This document shows positions 961 to 43,529 of a stretch of 53,358 bases of DNA, in pieces; position 1 is the first letter of the stretch; each line of letters opens with the position of its first letter. Position numbers and translations under genes: made by a program. A model generated the notes under the pieces. That model saw only the letters and a list, made by a program, of their open reading frames with translations, had not been told where the DNA came from and ran no database searches. The stretch is from Eubacterium sp. Its GTDB lineage: Bacteria > Bacillota > Clostridia > Peptostreptococcales > Anaerovoracaceae. The stretch is taken from NCBI GenBank assembly GCA_021769965.1, contig JAETRU010000020.1:1-53358 (forward strand), in the 5' to 3' direction.

Positions 961-3192
961 TTACAGACCTTCGTGGAAGGTTCTCGCGATAACTTCCTTC
1001 TGGTGAGCCTTGGACAGCGCGTTGAATCTTACGGCATATCCGGAAACTCTGATCGTCAGTGAAGGATATTTATCTGGATTTTCATAAGCGTCTACCAGAA
1101 CTTCTCTGTTCAGTACGTTTACGTTCAGGTGATGTGCACCCTGACCGAAATAACCGGAGAGCAGTTTGACCAGAGTATCCTTTCTGCTTTCCTTGTCCTT
1201 GCCCAGAGAATCCGGTGTGATACTGAATGTGTTGGAAATTCCGTCCTGACAGGTGTTCCAGTCGATCTTCGCAACAGAGTTTAAGGAAGCGACTGCTCCG
1301 CTGTTGTCTCTGCAGTGCATCGGGTTTGCGCCAGGTGCGAACGGAGTACCGGCTCTTCTGCCGTCAGGCGTATTGCCGGTCTTCTTTCCGTACATTACGT
1401 TGGATGTAATAGTCAGAACAGACAGTGTAGTAACAGCGTTTCTGTATGCAGGCTGCTTTCTCAGTTCCTGAATGGACTTCTCGGAAATAGCCACTGCCAG
1501 CTGGTCAACTCTGTCATCGTCATTACCATACTTAGGGAAATCGCCTTCTGTTCTGTAGTCAACGATAACGCCGTTCTCGTCTTTGATCGGATATACCTTA
1601 GCATATTTGATCGCGGACAGGGAATCAGCAGCTACAGAGAAACCTGCAACACCGAATGCCATCAGTCTCTTAACCTCGGAATTCAGGAACGCCATCTGGG
1701 ATCTCTCATAGTCATACTTGTCATGCATGAAGTGAATGATGTTCATGATCCTTGCATAAACGCTCATGAGCCATTCCAGATAAATGTTGTATCTTCTCCA
1801 TACTTCGTCGAAGTCCAGAGGACCGTCTCCCATTGGTTCCATCTGAGGTCCGATGTGCTCGCCGGTTCTTTCATCAATACCGCCGTTGATAGCCAGCAGC
1901 AGGCACTTTGCCAGGTTGCATCTAGCGCCGAAGAACTGCATCTGCTCACCCATCTGAATAGCGGATACGCAGCACGCAATGGAGTAGTCCTCGCCGTAAG
2001 CCGGTCTCATCTTGTCATCGTTCTCGTACTGGATGGAGTCTGTATCGATGGAAACCTGAGCGCAGAATCTCTTGAACGGTTCAGGCAGATCCTTGGACCA
2101 GAGAACAGTCAGGTTTGGTTCCGGTGCAGGTCCCAGGTTGTACAGTGTGTTCAGATATCTGTAAGTCATCTTGGTGACTCTGTGTCTTCCGTCAGCGCCA
2201 ACGCCGCCAAGTCCTTCTGTGATCCACATCGGATCTCCGCCGAACAGTTCATTGTATTCATTGGTTCTCAGGTGTCTTGCAACTCTCAGCTTCAGGATAA
2301 AGTCATCAACAAATTCCTGAACCTGTTCTTCTGTATATTTACCGGAAGCCAGGTCTCTTTCAGCATAAATATCAATGAAGGTAGCAGTTCTGCCGATGGA
2401 CATAGCCGCGCCGTTTTCTTCTTTGATGCCTGCCAGATAAGCGAAATAAGTCCACTGGATCGCTTCTTTTACGTCAGTAGCCGGTTTGGAGATATCGTAG
2501 CCGTATTTTTCAGCCATTTTCTTGATCTCCTTCAGCGCTGCGATCTGGTTCCAGATCTCTTCAGCCAGTCTTACGTTTTCTTCATTCATGATAGGTCTTG
2601 AAGCGATTTCGTCATGGTCGATCTGCTTTGCTTCGATCAGTCTGTCGATACCGTACAGCGCGCATCTTCTGTAGTCGCCGATGATTCTTCCGCGGCCGTA
2701 CGCGTCAGGAAGACCTGTGATATAGCCCAGATGTCTTGCTTTTCTCATTTCAGGAGAATATGCCTTGAAAACACCGTCGTTATGGGAAGTAACATAATTG
2801 AACATGAATTCAATTTCTTCAGGCAGCTTTTCGCCGTATTCCGCTACTTCTTCTCTTACCATTTTGATTCCGCCGAACGGGCAGATACCTCTCTTCAGAG
2901 GTTCGTCAGTCTGCAGACCTACGATCAGATCCTTACCCTCGATGATGTAACCCGGATCAAATGCGTTGATTCTCATGATCCTGCTTGCGTCCACCTTCAG
3001 AGTGCCGCCTGCTTTTCTTTCTTCCACTAACAGAGCCTTTACTTTGTCATTACATTCTGTTGTTCTGGCAGTAGGTCCAGCCAGAAAGCTTTCGTCTCCG
3101 TCATACGGAGTGTAGTTTAAGTTGATAAAGTTATCAACATTGATTGTTGTTTCCCATGCTCCAGTCTTGAAGCCTTCCCATGCGTTGTTCAT
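961..3192 (-). CDS. pflB: Formate C-acetyltransferase (pyruvate formate-lyase)
   Basis: Glycyl-radical enzyme converting pyruvate and CoA to acetyl-CoA and formate, central to anaerobic fermentation. 743 aa from the start chosen here. The active-site cysteine pair lies in SIACCVSAI and the glycyl-radical loop RVSGYAVRF is near the C-terminus. I place the start at 3192 ([11 protein letters not shown]) because GAGGAG lies just upstream and this is the normal PFL N-terminus; the frame stays open to 3342, but the extra 50 residues are unlike the family and would fall in the leader. A promoter and two dyads lie upstream. pflA follows directly. Confidence 0.96.
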
Positions 3193-3244
3193 TGGTCTTC
3201 TCCTCTCAAATAGATAATGCGTTTGTTGAACTTGTATTTTTATT

Positions 3245-3264
3245 GTATCCTGTATACAAGATAC
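3245..3264. promoter_or_regulatory. 20-bp near-perfect palindrome in the pflB leader
   Basis: GTATCCTGTATACAAGATAC reads the same on both strands except for one base pair per arm, with the core TGTATACA. It sits between the predicted pflB promoter and start codon. This is typical of a dimeric repressor site; TGTATACA cores are known for several GntR-type regulators, but the regulator here is not identifiable. Confidence 0.45.
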
Positions 3265-3333
3265 CTGAAAAAATTTAGCTACACTGCAAAAGCCTATTTC
3301 TCTCATCCACAGGTAACTTCTTTTCTTGCATAC

Positions 3334-3372
3334 ATAATACAACAGGAGAGGTCATTTCGTCAACACCTCTCC
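3334..3372 (-). promoter_or_regulatory. pflB promoter overlapped by an 8-bp perfect dyad
   Basis: On the minus strand TTGACG-N18-TATTAT (-35 at 3358-3363, -10 at 3334-3339) lies about 140 bp before pflB. A perfect inverted repeat, GGAGAGGT-N12-ACCTCTCC (3345-3372), covers the -35 and most of the spacer and is a likely operator. The 403-bp gap 3193-3595 holds this promoter, the palindrome at 3245 and the upstream region of the divergent permease gene. Confidence 0.55.
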
Positions 3373-19901: not shown

Positions 19902-20001
19902 TGGTATAATCTCCTTTTCATTTTGTTAAAAATCGTTCATTAAGATAGTTTAACTCTCTTTACTGAAATGATACTATATTTGTCAAAAAATTAAAGTACC
20001 A

Positions 20002-20023
20002 GTACTCTCTTTTTTGAGAGTAC
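20002..20023 (-). terminator. Hairpin downstream of the mttB operon
   Basis: GTACTCTC and GAGAGTAC form a perfect 8-bp stem with a T/A-only loop. It lies 34 bp past the stop of the second methyltransferase gene; an AT-rich stretch with TTTTTTG follows some 15 nt later on the minus strand. Confidence 0.5.
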
Positions 20024-20056
20024 CAGTATGTGCTAAATTCATGTAAAAATATCAAA

Positions 20057-21439
20057 TCAAAGCCCTGCATCCGCCTCTGCGCAGATCGCGTCGATTTCTC
20101 TCTGCACTGCGTCAGGCAGCGGATCCACCATCGGTCCTTCCAGGATCTCCCGCACCCGGCGGTTTGCGATCTCTATGCTGTCACGCTTCTCATAAGTCGC
20201 CGCGCGAAGGGTTGCAGGAAACATCTTTGAATAGTACATCTCGTCAGGATTTCTGAAATTCTTAACAGAGGATTTATGGGCCAGGTACGTGCCTCCCGGT
20301 CCTTCCGCCATGATCTCTTCCGTCAGGTCAGTATCCTTTCCGATGCGGATTCCTTTTGAAATACGCAGACACCGCTTCGCGATCTCATCCTCGGTGAGAA
20401 TCATTTCCAGACTGACTGCCATGCCGTTGTCGGTGGTGCCTATCCCGTCGATCAGATCCGCACGGCCCAGATAAGTCGGCATGGTCTCAAAACTGCCGCC
20501 GCCTGTCACAGCGCAAGGCAGTCCGTAATACCGCGCCATCTCCGTGCCCCCAAGGCTGACCAGAGCCGCCTCTCCGCTTTTTACATATTCTCCGGTAATA
20601 GGATCCGCCATGCCGGACGCCACGCCGTAGATCATCGGCCATCCCGGATGAATCGTCTGAAACAGCACCAGCGCAGAAAGCACTTCCGCGTTGATCTGGC
20701 AGATCGTTGAAAAAATAGATGCAGGGGACGTGAGTCCGATCATCGGCATCGGATAAATATTGACTGGAATTTCATAATCAGCCAGAGCCAGATACGCTTC
20801 CAGCATATTTTTATCCTGTGTCAGCGGTGAAACCGGGCAGTACAGCACTGACGCGATCTTTCTGCGGATGACTTCCTCTTTGCTTCCGAGGATCGTCTCC
20901 AGGATCCGCCCCGCGAACGCCGCTTCATAAGGGCTGCTCAGCTCAAACTGCACATGCTTGGACGTACCTGACAGAATCGCTGCCATTTCGTGAAGACAGT
21001 GAGTCGGTTCCGGCACATCCGCGGCACTGCACCCGGTCCAGCAGGCGATGCCCGTTTCCGCATGCTGGAAGATCCTTCCGACATTCACTACATCGCTTTT
21101 CAACGATTCACGGCGCTGCCTGGTGTACGGGTCATAAATATTCGTCGTGATGCCGCTCATCAGATGGCGGCTTTCTTTTGCCGGCAGGCTGAAATCATAT
21201 GCCGGATTCCGCGCGCCGAGGGTAAACTCTTTCGGTGCCAGAGATAGTGCACGTGACACCATTTCTTCATCAAAATACACGATCTGCTTTTCCTCACAGA
21301 CCTTTGCGCCTGCGTTCTTTAACGCCTCAAAAGCCTTCCGGCTCTTGATCCACACACCGGTGCTTTCCAGGATCTCCATGGTGCGCTGATGAACCAGCTT
21401 CTTTTCTTCCTCCGTAAAAACTTTGATCTCTATCTGCAT
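20057..21439 (-). CDS. MttB-family trimethylamine methyltransferase homologue without pyrrolysine
   Basis: 460-aa member of the MttB superfamily (PF06253). It aligns along its length with the upstream mttB (HLMSGITTNIYD, VSPLTQDKN, GLTSPASIFS, NGMAVSLEMI). At the position of the amber codon it reads through in sense codons near AVTGGGSFETMP. Such non-Pyl homologues include glycine betaine and other quaternary-amine methyltransferases (MtgB, MtpB) that pass a methyl group to a corrinoid protein, so the substrate is probably a quaternary amine. Its ATG overlaps the mttB 3' end by 10 nt with GAGGAGG inside mttB, so it is coupled to mttB. No corrinoid protein gene is adjacent. Confidence 0.85.
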   Translation of the reverse strand: MQIEIKVFTEEEKKLVHQRTMEILESTGVWIKSRKAFEALKNAGAKVCEEKQIVYFDEEMVSRALSLAPKEFTLGARNPAYDFSLPAKESRHLMSGITTNIYDPYTRQRRESLKSDVVNVGRIFQHAETGIACWTGCSAADVPEPTHCLHEMAAILSGTSKHVQFELSSPYEAAFAGRILETILGSKEEVIRRKIASVLYCPVSPLTQDKNMLEAYLALADYEIPVNIYPMPMIGLTSPASIFSTICQINAEVLSALVLFQTIHPGWPMIYGVASGMADPITGEYVKSGEAALVSLGGTEMARYYGLPCAVTGGGSFETMPTYLGRADLIDGIGTTDNGMAVSLEMILTEDEIAKRCLRISKGIRIGKDTDLTEEIMAEGPGGTYLAHKSSVKNFRNPDEMYYSKMFPATLRAATYEKRDSIEIANRRVREILEGPMVDPLPDAVQREIDAICAEADAGL

Positions 21440-22884
21440 AGCAATGCCTCCTCACGCGCAATAATATCCCGGATCTTCTTCTGTACTTCATCAGAAAGCG
21501 GCGCCGCGAAATGCTCTGCCAGAATGCGTCTTGCCTCTTCTCTTGCTCTCTGCGGCATATCCTTTGCTCCGTCCTTTTCCCATGCCTCACGCATACGGCG
21601 GTCGATCAGCTTCGCGTCGGAGATCTCTCCGCGCATATGCGCAAGAGTATGCTTCTGGCTCAGGTAATTTCCAGCCGGTCCTACGGCTTTGATTACATCC
21701 AGCGCCAGCGCATCCTTATCGACTTCCACCGGTTTTTCTGTCCGTTTAAACATACGTACAAATTCCGCGTCCATCAGGAACTGTTCAAAACTGACCGCCA
21801 TGCCCATGTCGATCATGCCCAGTCCGTAGATCAGGTCGGTTCCTGCCAGAACAGGCATCAGCCCGGTCAGGGTCTTTTCATGGCCGATCTGCACGTCCAT
21901 CACCTTGCTGTCCGCCTAAGTACCACCCACCTTGGTAACGATATCGTAGTAATCGCCAAACTGTGCCACCATGGCTCCAAACATGCCGTGCTCCGGCGCG
22001 CCCACCGGCGATGTCGCGCGGCGCATATCCATCACTGTCGTCGAGCTGCCGTAGATCACCGGATTTCCCGGATGTACAAGCTGCGCCAAGGTAATACCTG
22101 CCAGAATTTCCGCATTGGTCACCACAAAGGTTCCCGCAAGGGTCGCAGGCGTCGTTCCGCCGGTCAGACCCATGGACAGAATACTGATCGGAAGCCCTGC
22201 CTTTGCGGTTTCTATGATCACCTCTGACGCGCCTGCGTGAATTTCCAGCGGACTGTTCGGGCACATGCAGAGGGTGAAAAACGGCCTCTCTCGCAGCTTT
22301 TCCTCACTGCCGGCAATGGCAATGCCCATCTCTATGATCGCCCGGGCATTATGCCCGTTTTCCGCGTCCAGAATGGCGTGTTTGGTAGTATTCTTAAAAA
22401 TCGCTTCCGCTTCATAAAAATCTTTCAGCTTGCCCGGCGCGTCCTGAGCGGCAACCGCCGTAGTAAACGCGTTGATCTCCGGAATCGCGTCGACAAACCT
22501 GGCGAAATCCTCCAGATCCTTTGTGGTCGTATCCCGGATCTCCCCGGTTTCCAGTTCATACATTTGCAGCCCCGTACCAAAGCTGGTATAGGAAACCGTG
22601 CCGTCACCCAGCACAAAATCATCCTTCGGATCTCTGCCGCACATGGTGAAACTGCCCGGCGCCTGCTCGATCGCCCATTCCACAAGCTCCCGCGGAAACC
22701 GCACCATATCGGTTTCCCAGTCTACCGTGCAGCCAGCCTTTTCGTAGATTTCTTTTGCTTCTTTTCCAAAAATGCGCACCCCGTAGTCTGCCATCAGTTC
22801 CATGGTCGCATTATGAATTTCTATCACGCCTTCATCGCGCAAAATGTGATAGCCTCGCTTTTCTTTGCTCATCTGAAATGCCAT
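21430..22884 (-). CDS. mttB: Trimethylamine methyltransferase with in-frame amber codon (predicted pyrrolysine 323)
   Basis: Two open segments in the same frame (22884-21919 and 21915-21430) are separated only by TAG at 21916-21918. Together they encode about 484 aa, the length of MttB. The context DIVTKVGGT-[UAG]-ADSKVMDVQ matches the place where archaeal and bacterial MttB carry pyrrolysine, and family similarity continues on both sides (GLMPVLAGTDLIYGLGMIDMGMAVS after it). MttB moves a methyl group from trimethylamine to a corrinoid protein. I choose the start at 22884 (MAFQMSKEKR) because AGGAG lies upstream and the sigma-54 start point is ~22910; the ATG at 22932 lies inside the promoter. 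The gene ends in a second TAG. No pyl genes or tRNA-Pyl are in this window. Confidence 0.9.
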
Positions 22885-22920
22885 CGCACATATCTCCTTT
22901 CTGTCTATGCCATATATAAA

Positions 22921-22937
22921 AGCAATATTCATGCCAA
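22921..22937 (-). promoter_or_regulatory. Sigma-54 promoter of mttB
   Basis: The minus strand reads TTGGCATGAATATTGCT, matching YTGGCACG-N4-TTGCW with one change (TGGCAT for TGGCAC) and exact GG/GC spacing. The predicted start point is ~22910, 26 nt before the chosen mttB start. A sigma-54 activator gene diverges from the same region. Confidence 0.8.
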
Positions 22938-22986: not shown

Positions 22987-23093
22987 TTCTCAAATTGTTC
23001 TCAATTTCTCAATAAAATTCACTATACTCTAGGCATATATTCGTTGTAAAATATGTATATATCAATATTTTCTCATATTCGCATTGATTCTCA
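22987..23093. promoter_or_regulatory. TTCTCA(A) repeats, likely activator-binding region
   Basis: TTCTCAA occurs at 22987, 22998 and 23006, and TTCTCA again at 23070 and 23088. The first three lie ~50-70 bp upstream of the sigma-54 promoter and overlap the -35 region in front of TATACT (23023-23028), the probable -10 of the activator gene. This fits an upstream activating and autoregulatory site. Confidence 0.45.
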
Positions 23094-23154: not shown

Positions 23155-24969
23155 ATGAGTGATTTAACAGATATCAAAAAAGAAGTCCAGCAATTCGCGG
23201 AGGTCATATCCGAAGCCCTCCATGTAGAAAGCGAGATCATCGACGAAAATTACGAAGTAGTCGGCAATACCAGTTTTGTATTTCAAGGTGACAGAAACGA
23301 CTGGAGCGACAGCAACTCCAAGATCTGCCGCCACGTATTTGAAACCATGCGTCCTCTGGTCCTCTCCGATCCCGGAAAAAACCAGCTCTGCAGTGACTGC
23401 ATCGAGAAAGACAGCTGTTTTTATAAAGCCGGCCTATACTATCCGATCCTTCTGGAAGGTCAGTGCCGGGGCGTCATCAGCCTTGCCGCCTTCACCGAAG
23501 AGCAAAAGCAGAGCCTCCTTGAAAACAGCTATTCCTTCATGCGCTTTACCAGCAAAATGGCTGAAATACTGGCATCAAAGATACATGAAAAAGTCATGCA
23601 GCAAAATCTGATGCGTGCCAATGAGTTTCTCCAGACCACACTCAGCGCTGTTCACGAGGGCATTATAGCCTGTGATGCGAACGGAATCGTCACCTGTTTT
23701 AACGATACCGCACAGCACCTGCTGGGCATTCCGAAAAAACAGATCCTCGGCACACCGCTGGCAGACGCTTTGCCCGACGCTGCTCTGCTGACAGCGCTTG
23801 CTCAAAAGAAAAATCTGGTGGAACATCACGTCCAATATCCCGCTAAAGGAGGAGAGCCTCTGCACCTGATCAGCAACGTCAGCCTGATTCGGCAGGGAGG
23901 CGCGATTCTCGGCGGCGTTGAATCGTTCAATACCGATGCGTCTTTGTTCCGTATTGCTCAAAAGCTCCTAGGCAATGATGACGCTGCTTCTTTTTCCGCA
24001 ATTATCGGAGAAAGCAGCGTCATGCAGGCTGTCAAAGCACAGGCCGCCGCCGTAGCAAAAAGCCCTTCTACCGTGCTCATCACCGGTGAAAGCGGCACAG
24101 GCAAAGAGCTGTTTGCCCGCGCGATGCACAGTGTCAGTCTCAGAAATGACGCGCCATTTCTTGCCGTAAACTGCGGCGCTATTCCCGACACACTTCTGGA
24201 AAGTGAACTGTTCGGCTATGAAGCCGGCAGTTTTACCGGAGCAAACAGCAGCGGAAAACCCGGCCTCTTTGAGATCGCCCGCGGCGGCACCGTATTTCTC
24301 GATGAGATCGGCGATATGCCGCCTGCGCTGCAGGTCAAGCTGCTGCGCGTTCTGCAGGAAAAAACGATCACCCGCATCGGTTCCGCAAAAGAGATCCCGG
24401 TAGATGTACGCATTATCGCGGCTACGAACAGAAATCTGACCGAAAAGATCGCCGACGGCAGCTTCAGGGAGGACCTGTATTACAGACTAAATGTCATTCC
24501 TTTGCAGATTCCGCCTCTGCGCAGCCGCACAGAGGACATTCCGCTGCTGGTCGATCACCTGAGCCGCAAATACGCCCTTATTTTAGGCAGAAAGATCGAC
24601 AGTATCACAGAAGACGCGCTGCAGCTGCTCCTTCACTATCCGTGGCGCGGAAATGTACGCGAGCTGGAAAACGCCATTGAATACGCGATCAATTACACAT
24701 TTACCGGCTCTTCCATCACGGTTTCCGCACTGCCCCCATGGCTCCGTACAAACGATCAGCCACAAAATCCGGACTTAAACGCAGGTGTTTCTGGAAGCGC
24801 AGAAGACGTACCGCGGCAGCTGCGCCCGCAGGAAATCATAGAAAAGCAGAGACTTTCCGAATATCTGGCAGAAAAAGGGCGCTCTCTCAACGCAAAAAAA
24901 GAAATTGCCGCCAGTCTTCATATCAGTCTGGCGACACTCTATCGCAAAATCAAAAAATATCAGTTATAA
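23155..24969 (+). CDS. Sigma-54-dependent transcriptional activator (sensor, PAS, AAA+, Fis HTH)
   Basis: 604-aa enhancer-binding protein. Residues ~1-145 form a sensory domain with a cysteine cluster (C58, C79, C82, C88, C104), resembling the PocR-like ligand domains. A PAS domain follows (~155-265), then the AAA+ domain with Walker A GESGTGKE (311-318), the sigma-54 contact loop GSFTGA (358-363) and Walker B FLDEIGD. The last ~45 residues are a Fis-type helix-turn-helix. The start at 23155 has GGAGGG upstream. It diverges from mttB and its sigma-54 promoter, so it is very likely the local activator sensing a methylamine or its metabolite. Its 3' end overlaps the convergent mocR-type gene by 6 bp. 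Confidence 0.92.
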
Positions 24970-31980: not shown

Positions 31981-33318
31981 CTATGCTAATCCGGGAAAAA
32001 GCATAAACAAGCCTGTTGTGATAAATGTACATACCAAAGGGATCAATACCGTGGTAACAAAGCAATAGATATACCCTTCTCTCATGCTGACTCCAGCTGC
32101 TCCCATAGAGATTATGGCCGCTCCGCAGTAAGGCATAGATTCAAAGGTCGTTGTCGCAATGACGGCTGTGCGATGCAGCGCTGTTGCAGACAGCGTTCCT
32201 GATTCAATGGCAGGTAGATATGCCGGCAGCCCCAGCTGCAGCGCCGCCGGAGGCGATGTCGTGAAGAGTACAAAGATCACTACGCCGATCGTTGCCACCA
32301 GCAAAGGGTTTCCTTCAATCCCTATAAATATTTTCATGACCTTCTGAAATGCCTCTGTCTGCTGCACAACACCTGCAAATCCCATCAGTGACGAAACCTG
32401 GAAAAATACTGTCGTTCCATTGGTAACCCCCTCATTCAGCATATCAAAGATGCCTTTGATGCTTGGATTTGATAAGCAGCTTGACAGCAAGATTACAGCC
32501 AATGCAATACCAGCAGTTAAACAAATGGTAATATTCAGATTAAATACTGCGTATGTCAGGAATACAACCAGCAGCGGGAGCAATGTGATCCAGAAGTTTG
32601 GCCGTTTTCTCTCCGCCTCCTCTTCAACAGTTCTTTTTTCATCTATCTCCGTGAATATCTCTCCTTTTTCCACAGATCGAACGATCACGCGATACATGAA
32701 AATTATCCCCAATACAACCATCAAAAGGGCAGATACTAAACCCGGCACCAATCCAGCCGTAGAAGTTGTCCCCAAAATGCCTGATGCAGTAAGGTTGCCA
32801 ATGCTCGGAGACCCCGGGGCTGCCATAGCAGCAGAGGCACCTGAAGACATCATCATCGCAGGGATAAATTTTCTTGGAATATTTGCAGCGCGAGCGATAG
32901 AGAAAGCAATTGGAATCGTTGACAAAACCACTACGATACCAGAAACACCTGTCCATGTCAAAAGCAGCCCCACCAGATTCACCGCAATCAAACTCATTAA
33001 AATCACTTTGTTTTGCGAAACATCTTTCCCTGAAGTCAACTTGCCAAGGACAAACTCACCGACCGCTTCCGCCGCGCCAGTACGTTCATACACTTTGCCA
33101 AACATCGCGCCAAGAATTGCAAATGCAAATCCTACAGTCATCCAGTTTGCAATGGAGCCAAGATAGACCCCGAGGAATGTATCCAAGGCTGGAAGTCCGT
33201 TGGTCAATATTACCAAAACCGCACATATAGGAGCCGCATAAATATTTGACATTCCTTTAAACACCAATATAATCAACAGGAGCATTCCTGCAATGATACC
33301 TACCAGACCTATACTCAT
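31981..33318 (-). CDS. GntP-family (gluconate/carboxylate) permease
   Basis: 445-aa membrane protein with about 12 hydrophobic helices, resembling the GntP/gluconate:H+ symporter family and related carboxylate permeases (TSPPAALQLGLPAYL, MMMSSGASAAMAAPGSPSIGN). It should import a hydroxy-acid or sugar acid. It lies between the aldolase and the iron alcohol dehydrogenase genes, so its substrate is presumably what the operon degrades. It ends with TAG. Confidence 0.83.
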   Translation of the reverse strand: MSIGLVGIIAGMLLLIILVFKGMSNIYAAPICAVLVILTNGLPALDTFLGVYLGSIANWMTVGFAFAILGAMFGKVYERTGAAEAVGEFVLGKLTSGKDVSQNKVILMSLIAVNLVGLLLTWTGVSGIVVVLSTIPIAFSIARAANIPRKFIPAMMMSSGASAAMAAPGSPSIGNLTASGILGTTSTAGLVPGLVSALLMVVLGIIFMYRVIVRSVEKGEIFTEIDEKRTVEEEAERKRPNFWITLLPLLVVFLTYAVFNLNITICLTAGIALAVILLSSCLSNPSIKGIFDMLNEGVTNGTTVFFQVSSLMGFAGVVQQTEAFQKVMKIFIGIEGNPLLVATIGVVIFVLFTTSPPAALQLGLPAYLPAIESGTLSATALHRTAVIATTTFESMPYCGAAIISMGAAGVSMREGYIYCFVTTVLIPLVCTFITTGLFMLFPGLA

Positions 33319-42501: not shown

Positions 42502-42532
42502 CAATATATGCGGCAAAAGCGGCGGATATGAA
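42502..42532 (-). promoter_or_regulatory. Possible sigma-E promoter of spoIIID
   Basis: On the minus strand TTCATATC, then ~14 nt, then CATATATTG resembles the sigma-E pattern (KMATATT, 14-15, CATACAHT), ~35 bp before the ATG. spoIIID is sigma-E-dependent in Bacillus and Clostridium. Confidence 0.4.
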
Positions 42533-42687
42533 GGATTTGCCGGATTTTTTAAGAGGAGGTACCGGAGCGTCTCTGTCTGCCGGAAGAGCGGCCTGGCAGC
42601 CGCAGGCAAAAATAGAGATAAAGATACGCACGAACTTCCATTATAACTTAATTTTTGAATTTTATTTCATCAAATCTAAATTTTTCC

Positions 42688-42716
42688 TTGCATTTATTTC
42701 CTTTTCAATATATGAT
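42688..42716 (+). promoter_or_regulatory. Promoter of the nuclease-like gene
   Basis: TTGCAT-N17-TATGAT (42688-42693, 42711-42716), 28 bp before the chosen start codon. Confidence 0.5.
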
Positions 42717-42743
42717 GGATATAACAGAAAGGGGAAGGTCACT

Positions 42744-43529
42744 ATGTTTAACACAAGCGATTACGCGGCGTCGGATCTGGCTTATCAGCACAGACTGAAA
42801 GAAATTTATGAACAGGAACTTCAGGCTCTTCCGGAGGGAAGTCTGTCCGTCCACAAAGTGGGCGACAAAGCATATTACTACAGACATCTTAACGGAACTC
42901 GCACGTACATTCCCGTATCAGAAAACGAACTGATCCAGCAGTTACAAAAGAAACGTTTTGTACAGCAGTCTATCAGCAATATCAATCAAAACTGCAAAGC
43001 TCTGACACAGCTCCAAAAAAGTTACCAAAGTATCAATGCTGATGATATCATGAACGCACTGCCCGATACATATCAGGGGTCATCTGCATGGAGCATGATG
43101 CGCACTCCTGCTACAGATCCTGAAAAATGGGCATGCGCAGACTACCGAAAAAACACCGCTTACCCGGAGGAACTGCGGCATCGAACCATCAAAGGAGATC
43201 TGGTCCGTTCAAAGTCAGAGGTGATCATAGCCAATGCGCTTTTCACAAAAGGAATTCCCTATCGCTACGATGAGGTCATAACAATAGGGAACGCAACTGC
43301 TTCTCCGGACTTTCATATTCTCATTCTGCGTACCGGCGAATCCAAATGGTTAGAGCATTTCGGCATGATCCATGATGAGAACTATCGAAAAAACGTCATG
43401 TGGAAAATCGAATCCTACTTAAAAAACGGATTTAAACCCTGGGAGAATATCATCTTTACTTTTGACGACCTGGATGGAAACATCAATGCCCAGCTCATCG
43501 ATACCATTCTGAACACGTTCTGTATGTAA
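42744..43529 (+). CDS. PD-(D/E)XK nuclease-like protein of unknown role
   Basis: 261 aa. The N-terminal ~130 residues are helical and charged, with no recognised domain. The C-terminal half has the spacing of a PD-(D/E)XK fold: Glu in VRSKSEVIIANAL, Asp in SPDFHI, and the acidic residue in WLEHFGMI, followed by a conserved-looking YRKNVMWKIESYL and PWENIIFTFDD. Proteins with this C-terminal block occur in mobile and accessory regions of Clostridia; the role is not established. I place the start at 42744 after AAAGGGGAAGG; the frame is open to 42528 without support. It is directly followed, 32 bp on, by palindromic array 2. It is not certain that it cuts DNA. Confidence 0.6.
   Translation: MFNTSDYAASDLAYQHRLKEIYEQELQALPEGSLSVHKVGDKAYYYRHLNGTRTYIPVSENELIQQLQKKRFVQQSISNINQNCKALTQLQKSYQSINADDIMNALPDTYQGSSAWSMMRTPATDPEKWACADYRKNTAYPEELRHRTIKGDLVRSKSEVIIANALFTKGIPYRYDEVITIGNATASPDFHILILRTGESKWLEHFGMIHDENYRKNVMWKIESYLKNGFKPWENIIFTFDDLDGNINAQLIDTILNTFCM

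Follow-up and report, generated by a model that had tools for sequence, protein, structure and literature searches.

The question raised by this locus is whether two adjacent open reading frames, parted by a single TAG codon, form one trimethylamine (TMA) methyltransferase gene in which UAG is read as pyrrolysine (Pyl), and how a second UAG at the end of the same gene is to be understood. The DNA analysed here (the window, 53,358 nucleotides) makes up contig C69 in an assembly of 2.99 Mb and 82 contigs that is 96.9% complete, and the host is a gut bacterium related to Emergencia. The explanation proposed, to which a probability of roughly 0.93 is given, is that the gene, mttB2, encodes a Pyl-dependent TMA methyltransferase in a sigma-54 operon, with UAG read as Pyl at codon 323 and as a stop at codon 485. 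The features are collected in Table 1; genomes, contigs and loci are denoted by G, C and L numbers.

Table 1. Features of the mttB2-mttN region, with positions in the window
Feature	Position	Strand	Basis
Terminator-like hairpin after mttN	19997..20028	minus	13-pair stem, T-rich tail
mttN (name given here), MttB-superfamily gene without Pyl	20057..21439	minus	PF06253, TIGR02369, alignment, tree
TAG terminator of mttB2, codon 485	21430..21432	minus	frame reading
mttB2, trimethylamine--corrinoid protein Co-methyltransferase	21430..22884	minus	TIGR02369, PF06253, PDB 7xcm/7xcl
Rfam PYLIS_3 (RF02510) match	21819..21918	minus	60.7 bits, gathering 38
In-frame TAG, predicted pyrrolysine, codon 323 of mttB2	21916..21918	minus	alignment to Pyl334
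Sigma-54 (-24/-12) promoter-like motif, TGGCATGAATATTGCT	22921..22936	minus	motif search
Five TGAGAA repeats, likely activator binding sites (predicted)	22987..23093	minus	shuffle test
Divergent PAS/sigma-54-interaction/HTH activator, likely regulator	23155..24969	plus	ORF listed from 23053

The frame of mttB2 opens with an ATG at 22882-22884, closes with the stop at 21430-21432 and comprises 485 codons including the stop, i.e., 484 residues with the predicted Pyl at 323. The plus-strand letters at 21916-21918 are CTA, i.e., TAG on the minus strand. A sequence-only reading of the window had described two MttB segments of one frame separated by this TAG and joined at GGT-UAG-ADSKV, had predicted pyrrolysine at residue 323, and had expected automatic annotation to split the gene. 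At the level of sequence these claims were borne out: the TAG is in frame as codon 323, where the flanking residues read VGGT-O-ADSKVMDVQ; the residue number is correct, the predicted Pyl lying opposite Pyl334 of M. barkeri MttB; and the standard code cuts the frame into two ORFs, 21916..22932 (338 aa, starting at an ATG farther upstream) and 21430..21903 (157 aa, starting at a GTG). Such a split conceals what is probably a route of TMA consumption in a relative of Emergencia timonensis.

When read through, MttB2 scored 617.5 bits against TIGR02369, the family of Pyl TMA-methyltransferases (equivalog cut-off 525), with residues 14-478 covering positions 5-468 of the 469 in the profile, and the assignment of both segments to MttB was thus upheld. 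The match to PF06253 reached 343.8 bits, and those to PDB 7xcm and 7xcl had E values of 6.8e-102 and 4.2e-101. In the alignment to 7xcm, codon 323 falls opposite chain position 334, which is Pyl334 of M. barkeri MttB. Passages of PMC9842639 place Gly110-Thr111, Met249, Pyl334, Tyr364 and Gly372 in the active site of the M. barkeri enzyme or at its rim, and in the alignment these correspond to G103-T104, M238, 323, Y353 and G361 of MttB2. A structure model built from a shallow alignment had a mean pLDDT of 65.1 and was set aside. Judged by these matches, MttB2 is a predicted Pyl-type TMA methyltransferase, with TMA as the likely substrate.

The sequence-only reading had also proposed a search of the genome for pylT, pylS/pylSn and pylBCD, the absence of which would count against Pyl, and the whole set was found on contig C4 (locus L010). 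The tRNA-Pyl there has the anticodon CUA; pylD, pylSc, pylC and pylB are every one over the curated cut-off, and pylSn scored 123.4 bits against TIGR03912 (cut-off 51.15). As far as genes can tell, the organism would therefore be able to make pyrrolysine, as had been supposed. The same contig carries TAG-bearing mtbB and mttB1 genes, both over cut-off, two corrinoid-protein genes (220.9 bits, over the cut-off of 215.3, and 186.0 bits, below it), and a ramA/AcsV-like and an MtaA-like gene, both under their cut-offs. Among the 13 ORFs of this pyl/methylamine cluster, only the ramA-like one terminates in TAG. The genome has five MTTB-family genes, two of them with TAG, and mttB2 is its second Pyl-mttB besides mttB1. 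No match to mtmB was found in the genome at E<=0.001. Neither a corrinoid-protein gene nor a pyl gene was found within the window, and the function of mttB2 would therefore depend on genes of another contig in this 82-contig assembly.

Nine loci came out of a scan of genome contigs, including Emergencia timonensis SN18 (L017, 83%) and two uncultured Emergencia. Across 197 sampled genomes of the family, 31 matches to mttB2 were found in 22 genomes at E<=1e-120, a threshold that favours close kin, and each of the 31 contained exactly one TAG. PylS was over cut-off in 28 of the 197 genomes, among them all 22 with an mttB match; the other six had no mttB match at that threshold. The Pyl TAG occupies codon 323 or 324 (query count) in all 38 gene rows, which were found by protein match, not by TAG, after removal of eight duplicate loci and with rows below 48% identity left out; two of the 38 repeat others over a 120-nt stretch, leaving 36 distinct. 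Between the window and L015, dN/dS of mttB2 was 0.017 before the TAG and 0.021 after it, with dS of 0.81 and 0.90, so purifying selection acts on both sides. Because of the 31/31 TAG-bearing matches, the 38/38 rows and the low dN/dS on both sides, mttB2 with its in-frame TAG is genuine, the product of neither chance nor sequencing error, and the TAG is very probably read as pyrrolysine.

Beyond these close relatives, a survey of the phylum gave a match at E<=1e-90 in 31 of 398 sampled genomes, only some of the candidates being scored, and Pyl-free matches appeared from 39% identity downward, intermixed with TAG-bearing ones. The Pyl column is truly occupied by TAG in 44 of the 73 rows of the MttB alignment; the X at 470-483 in rows L073_1483, L097_1501, L099_1495, L101_2892 and L053_4390 is the terminator and not the Pyl site. 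MttB genes without TAG at the site (L051, L052, L053 and L098) form one group nested inside the Pyl clade of the tree, which suggests that Pyl was lost there, and three of the four adjoin a Pyl-mttB. Four genomes (G243, G263, G282 and G349) have 25-42 first-look MttB candidates each, and the four scored per genome all bear TAG. Two matches, L081 and L086, have one TAG and one TAA inside, with the TAA 159 and 157 codons past the Pyl codon, where other rows have terminators. Genome G193 retains pylS and another Pyl-mttB; its corresponding locus (L069) has kept the neighbour genes, but mttB2 is gone, together with the first half of mttN and most of the activator, so this copy of mttB2 is dispensable. 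Within L069 (G193:C29, 3988-4857), only 92 aa are left of the activator ORF, and mttN has shrunk to a C-terminal ORF of 208 aa.

As the gene ends in TAG as well, UAG probably has two meanings in a single mttB2 message, an amino acid and a stop, termination being predicted at codon 485; readthrough there would append 36 further residues before a TAA. The terminators of the 38 close rows are TAG in 8, TAA in 23 and TGA in 7. Counted among distinct genes, 8 of 36 end in TAG, the eight being untouched by the duplicates, as do 5 of the 25 more distant genes with TAG at the Pyl site; the E. timonensis gene in L017 also ends in TAG. Within the window, TAG terminates 8 of the 34 genes with a family match, mttB2 included, and is therefore not avoided but an ordinary stop here. 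According to passages of PMC3941956, bacteria cope with UAG by regulation and not by codon avoidance, and passages of PMC8211752 describe the escape of other stops from recoding as still unexplained, with no cis element found or required for UAG recoding in E. coli. Regulation alone, however, cannot shield the UAG terminator of a Pyl gene, because such a gene must be translated while Pyl is present. Judged by title and the start of the abstract, none of the matches listed from the open-access literature concerned a Pyl gene ending in UAG. With 13 genes carrying both UAGs (8/36 close, 5/25 other), the question of stop versus Pyl becomes testable in a single native protein.

No general signal that would separate the stop at 485 from the readthrough at 323 was found in codon context, following base or RNA fold. 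The second codon after the Pyl TAG is GAC in 35 of the 36 distinct close genes, although GAC accounts for 47% of use overall. In a ranking of conserved columns by relative codon entropy, which took in 118 columns and also those immediately preceding the TAG, this codon came out lowest. Outside the family it is GAC in 17/25, against 9/25 for a control Asp at codon +7, and the 100-nt region, taken as a whole, is under no stronger constraint than the remainder of the gene (0.84 vs 0.89, p 0.997); a sense-UAG context code with GAC at +2 was therefore ruled out as a general signal. A following G was also rejected as the discriminator, since 3 of the 8 TAG stops in the window have it too and A is the next base after 3 of the 25 distant Pyl codons. 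As for the Rfam PYLIS_3 match, RNAalifold found 0 pairs in the 36 sequences, and the Rfam structure, with 64.2% paired cells, was equalled in 425 of 500 column shuffles. Against slid versions of itself it came out higher in paired cells and in covariation score, though not in pairs changed on both sides (2 vs 3 at +1). A conserved PYLIS fold in this clade was thus unsupported by RNAalifold and by the shuffle comparison, and passages of PMC3639795 state that no common structure was found for mttB. The match is probably conserved coding sequence, an RNA fold in the clade having little support.

The sequence upstream of mttB2 points to control by sigma-54. The -24/-12 motif just upstream of the gene is the sole match in the window, with 0.09 expected. 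The pattern also occurs upstream in L015, L016, L018 and L019; in L016 it overlaps the opening codons of the mtbB ORF in its longest form, and L017 has a near match, read by eye. Between the promoter motif and the divergent activator, TGAGAA occurs five times in 270 nt, which was equalled in 0 of 500 shuffles; three to four copies are also present in L015, L016, L017 and L019, the loci in which the activator too stands beside the operon. The activator has a PF00158 domain (245 bits), a PAS domain and an AAA lid, and it is PrdR-like at 402 bits, below the cut-off of 795. Terminator-like hairpins numbered five in the region, with 3.0 expected. By its sequence, mttB2-mttN is a predicted sigma-54-dependent operon, in which the promoter would be used and the activator would bind the TGAGAA repeats.

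The second gene, mttN, begins within mttB2, its start overlapping the end of that gene by 10 nt, and GAGGAGG at 21447..21453 (minus strand), inside the last mttB2 codons, is presumably a Shine-Dalgarno-like motif for it. It is a member of the MttB superfamily (PF06253, 183.1 bits vs gathering 25) and not of TIGR02369 (306.9 bits, below the cut-off of 525). It has glycine in the Pyl column and lacks the 15 residues that would follow; all 12 mttN rows of an alignment made without the G193 fragment likewise have glycine there and lack 15-16 residues after it. In the tree these 12 rows make up a single clade (100/100), which is placed together with two further Pyl-free genes outside the Pyl clade, a placement that carries a long-branch warning. 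Compared with L015, mttN had a dN/dS of 0.027, indicating purifying selection; its structure model, again from a shallow alignment, had a mean pLDDT of 53.4 and was likewise set aside. The gene was found at E<=1e-100 in 8 of the 197 family genomes (in one, G193, as a fragment), all eight with PylS. It overlaps or adjoins a Pyl-mttB in the window, L015-L019, L021, G140 and G094, with the order mtbB, mttB, mttN in E. timonensis (L017), L016 and L018. In G102 and G177 it lies on a different contig from the Pyl-mttB, so the link is not absolute. In each of the loci concerned, L065 (G102:C54) and L067 (G177:C50), an mttN orthologue (63%) precedes a similar gene, which in L065 is amidohydrolase-like; L065 also holds genes for an M20-type peptidase and an oligopeptide ABC transporter, and no Pyl-mttB was found in the stretches fetched for either locus. 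Elsewhere, L068 (G141:C29, 13-4371) has three tandem Pyl-free MttB-family genes, of which only the first is without the segment after the Pyl column.

Several other explanations have to be weighed against these results. The TAG at codon 323 could be a nonsense mutation or a sequencing error in a decaying second copy, as the genome has another Pyl-mttB beside its pyl genes and G193 lacks part of the locus. This is extremely improbable, given the same-codon TAG in all 38 close rows (36 distinct), a dN/dS of only 0.021 after the TAG at a dS of 0.90, and the pyl genes in the genome. Another possibility concerns the substrate: MttB2 is only 53% identical to the C4 copy, and quaternary amines such as carnitine and gamma-butyrobetaine are substrates of some MttB-superfamily proteins, as described in parts of PMC8604678, so that a quaternary amine might be demethylated instead of TMA. 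The score over the Pyl-TMA equivalog cut-off, the catalytic residues shared with M. barkeri MttB, and the mtbB adjoining the gene in E. timonensis and two relatives make such a role improbable.

The reading of the second UAG and the role of mttN are less settled. If UAG were read as Pyl at both 323 and 485, MttB2 would carry a 37-residue tail (Pyl plus 36) from another frame of mttN; the failure of RNAalifold and of the shuffle comparison to reveal a separating element, and the E. coli report of recoding without a cis element and with the escape of other stops unexplained (PMC8211752, in part), would fit this. It is nevertheless unlikely, as TAG is a normal stop in the window, the gene ends in TAA in L016 and L018, both close relatives, so that the tail is not kept, and the hypothetical tails are unequal (36 residues in the window, 89 in L015 and 36 in L017). 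According to a more far-reaching proposal, UAG is Pyl at 323 and stop at 485 in one translation event, the stop at 485 allows re-initiation at mttN, and MttN is a partner of the Pyl enzyme. The choice between stop and Pyl would then be local and not only a matter of pyl genes being on or off, and re-initiation through the 10-nt overlap, if true, would mean that MttN is made mainly when Pyl is available. The presence of mttN solely in genomes with PylS (8/197) and its repeated overlap or adjacency with Pyl-mttB, in the window, L015-L019, L021, G140 and G094, speak for a partnership, yet taken as a whole this proposal is rather doubtful. We lean towards the reading that MttN is a separate, Pyl-independent methyltransferase sharing the operon by chance, with its gene outside the Pyl clade, on other contigs than Pyl-mttB in G102 and G177, and in G102 among peptidase, amidohydrolase-like and oligopeptide transporter genes.

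The observed gene structure, conservation, complete pyl set and promoter motif are consistent with the following course. Transcription would start at the sigma-54 promoter under the divergent activator. At codon 323, Pyl-tRNA(CUA) would compete with the release factor, possibly in a favourable local context, and the UAG at codon 485, beside the overlapping start of mttN, would mostly terminate. Pyl at residue 323 would bind TMA and present a methyl group to a corrinoid protein whose gene lies in another part of the genome, and the product, dimethylamine, could be demethylated further by the TAG-bearing MtbB of contig C4. The gene mttB2 is an ordinary, well-supported Pyl-mttB of a known kind; its UAG terminator is unusual and its partner gene mttN unexplained.

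Abstracts of several papers mention Emergencia timonensis along with gamma-butyrobetaine and TMA. CutC was considered for the window and rejected, the glycyl-radical gene at 961-3342 being a formate C-acetyltransferase; two further window ORFs, 31981-33318 (445 aa) and 42528-43529 (333 aa), had no Pfam match. The Pyl-mttB of Emergencia is already published: passages of PMC10653893, on MAGICdb, report mttB from Emergencia as well as from a novel genus of Anaerovoracaceae, and mttB2 belongs to the same gene family in the same group of bacteria, its UAG terminator, mttN and operon being unmentioned in those passages. MttN resembles glycine betaine methyltransferase and other Pyl-free proteins of the superfamily (PDB 9yce and 2qne, about 144 bits) and belongs with them in that superfamily; Pyl-free rows outside the mttN clade differ in having residues where all 12 mttN rows lack 15-16, the two PDB entries being outside the alignment that reveals this gap. 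MttB2 is like M. barkeri MttB (7xcl/7xcm) in its full-length match over the equivalog cut-off, its homologous Pyl residue and its conserved active-site residues. It differs in being bacterial, in its UAG terminator at 485, and in its setting, a sigma-54-type operon that contains mttN but no corrinoid gene. A further close parallel is the TMA pathway of Bilophila described in PMC7593587, likewise a gut bacterium with Pyl machinery and a TAG-bearing mttB; for Bilophila that paper reports no mtbB, whereas an mtbB with TAG is present here.
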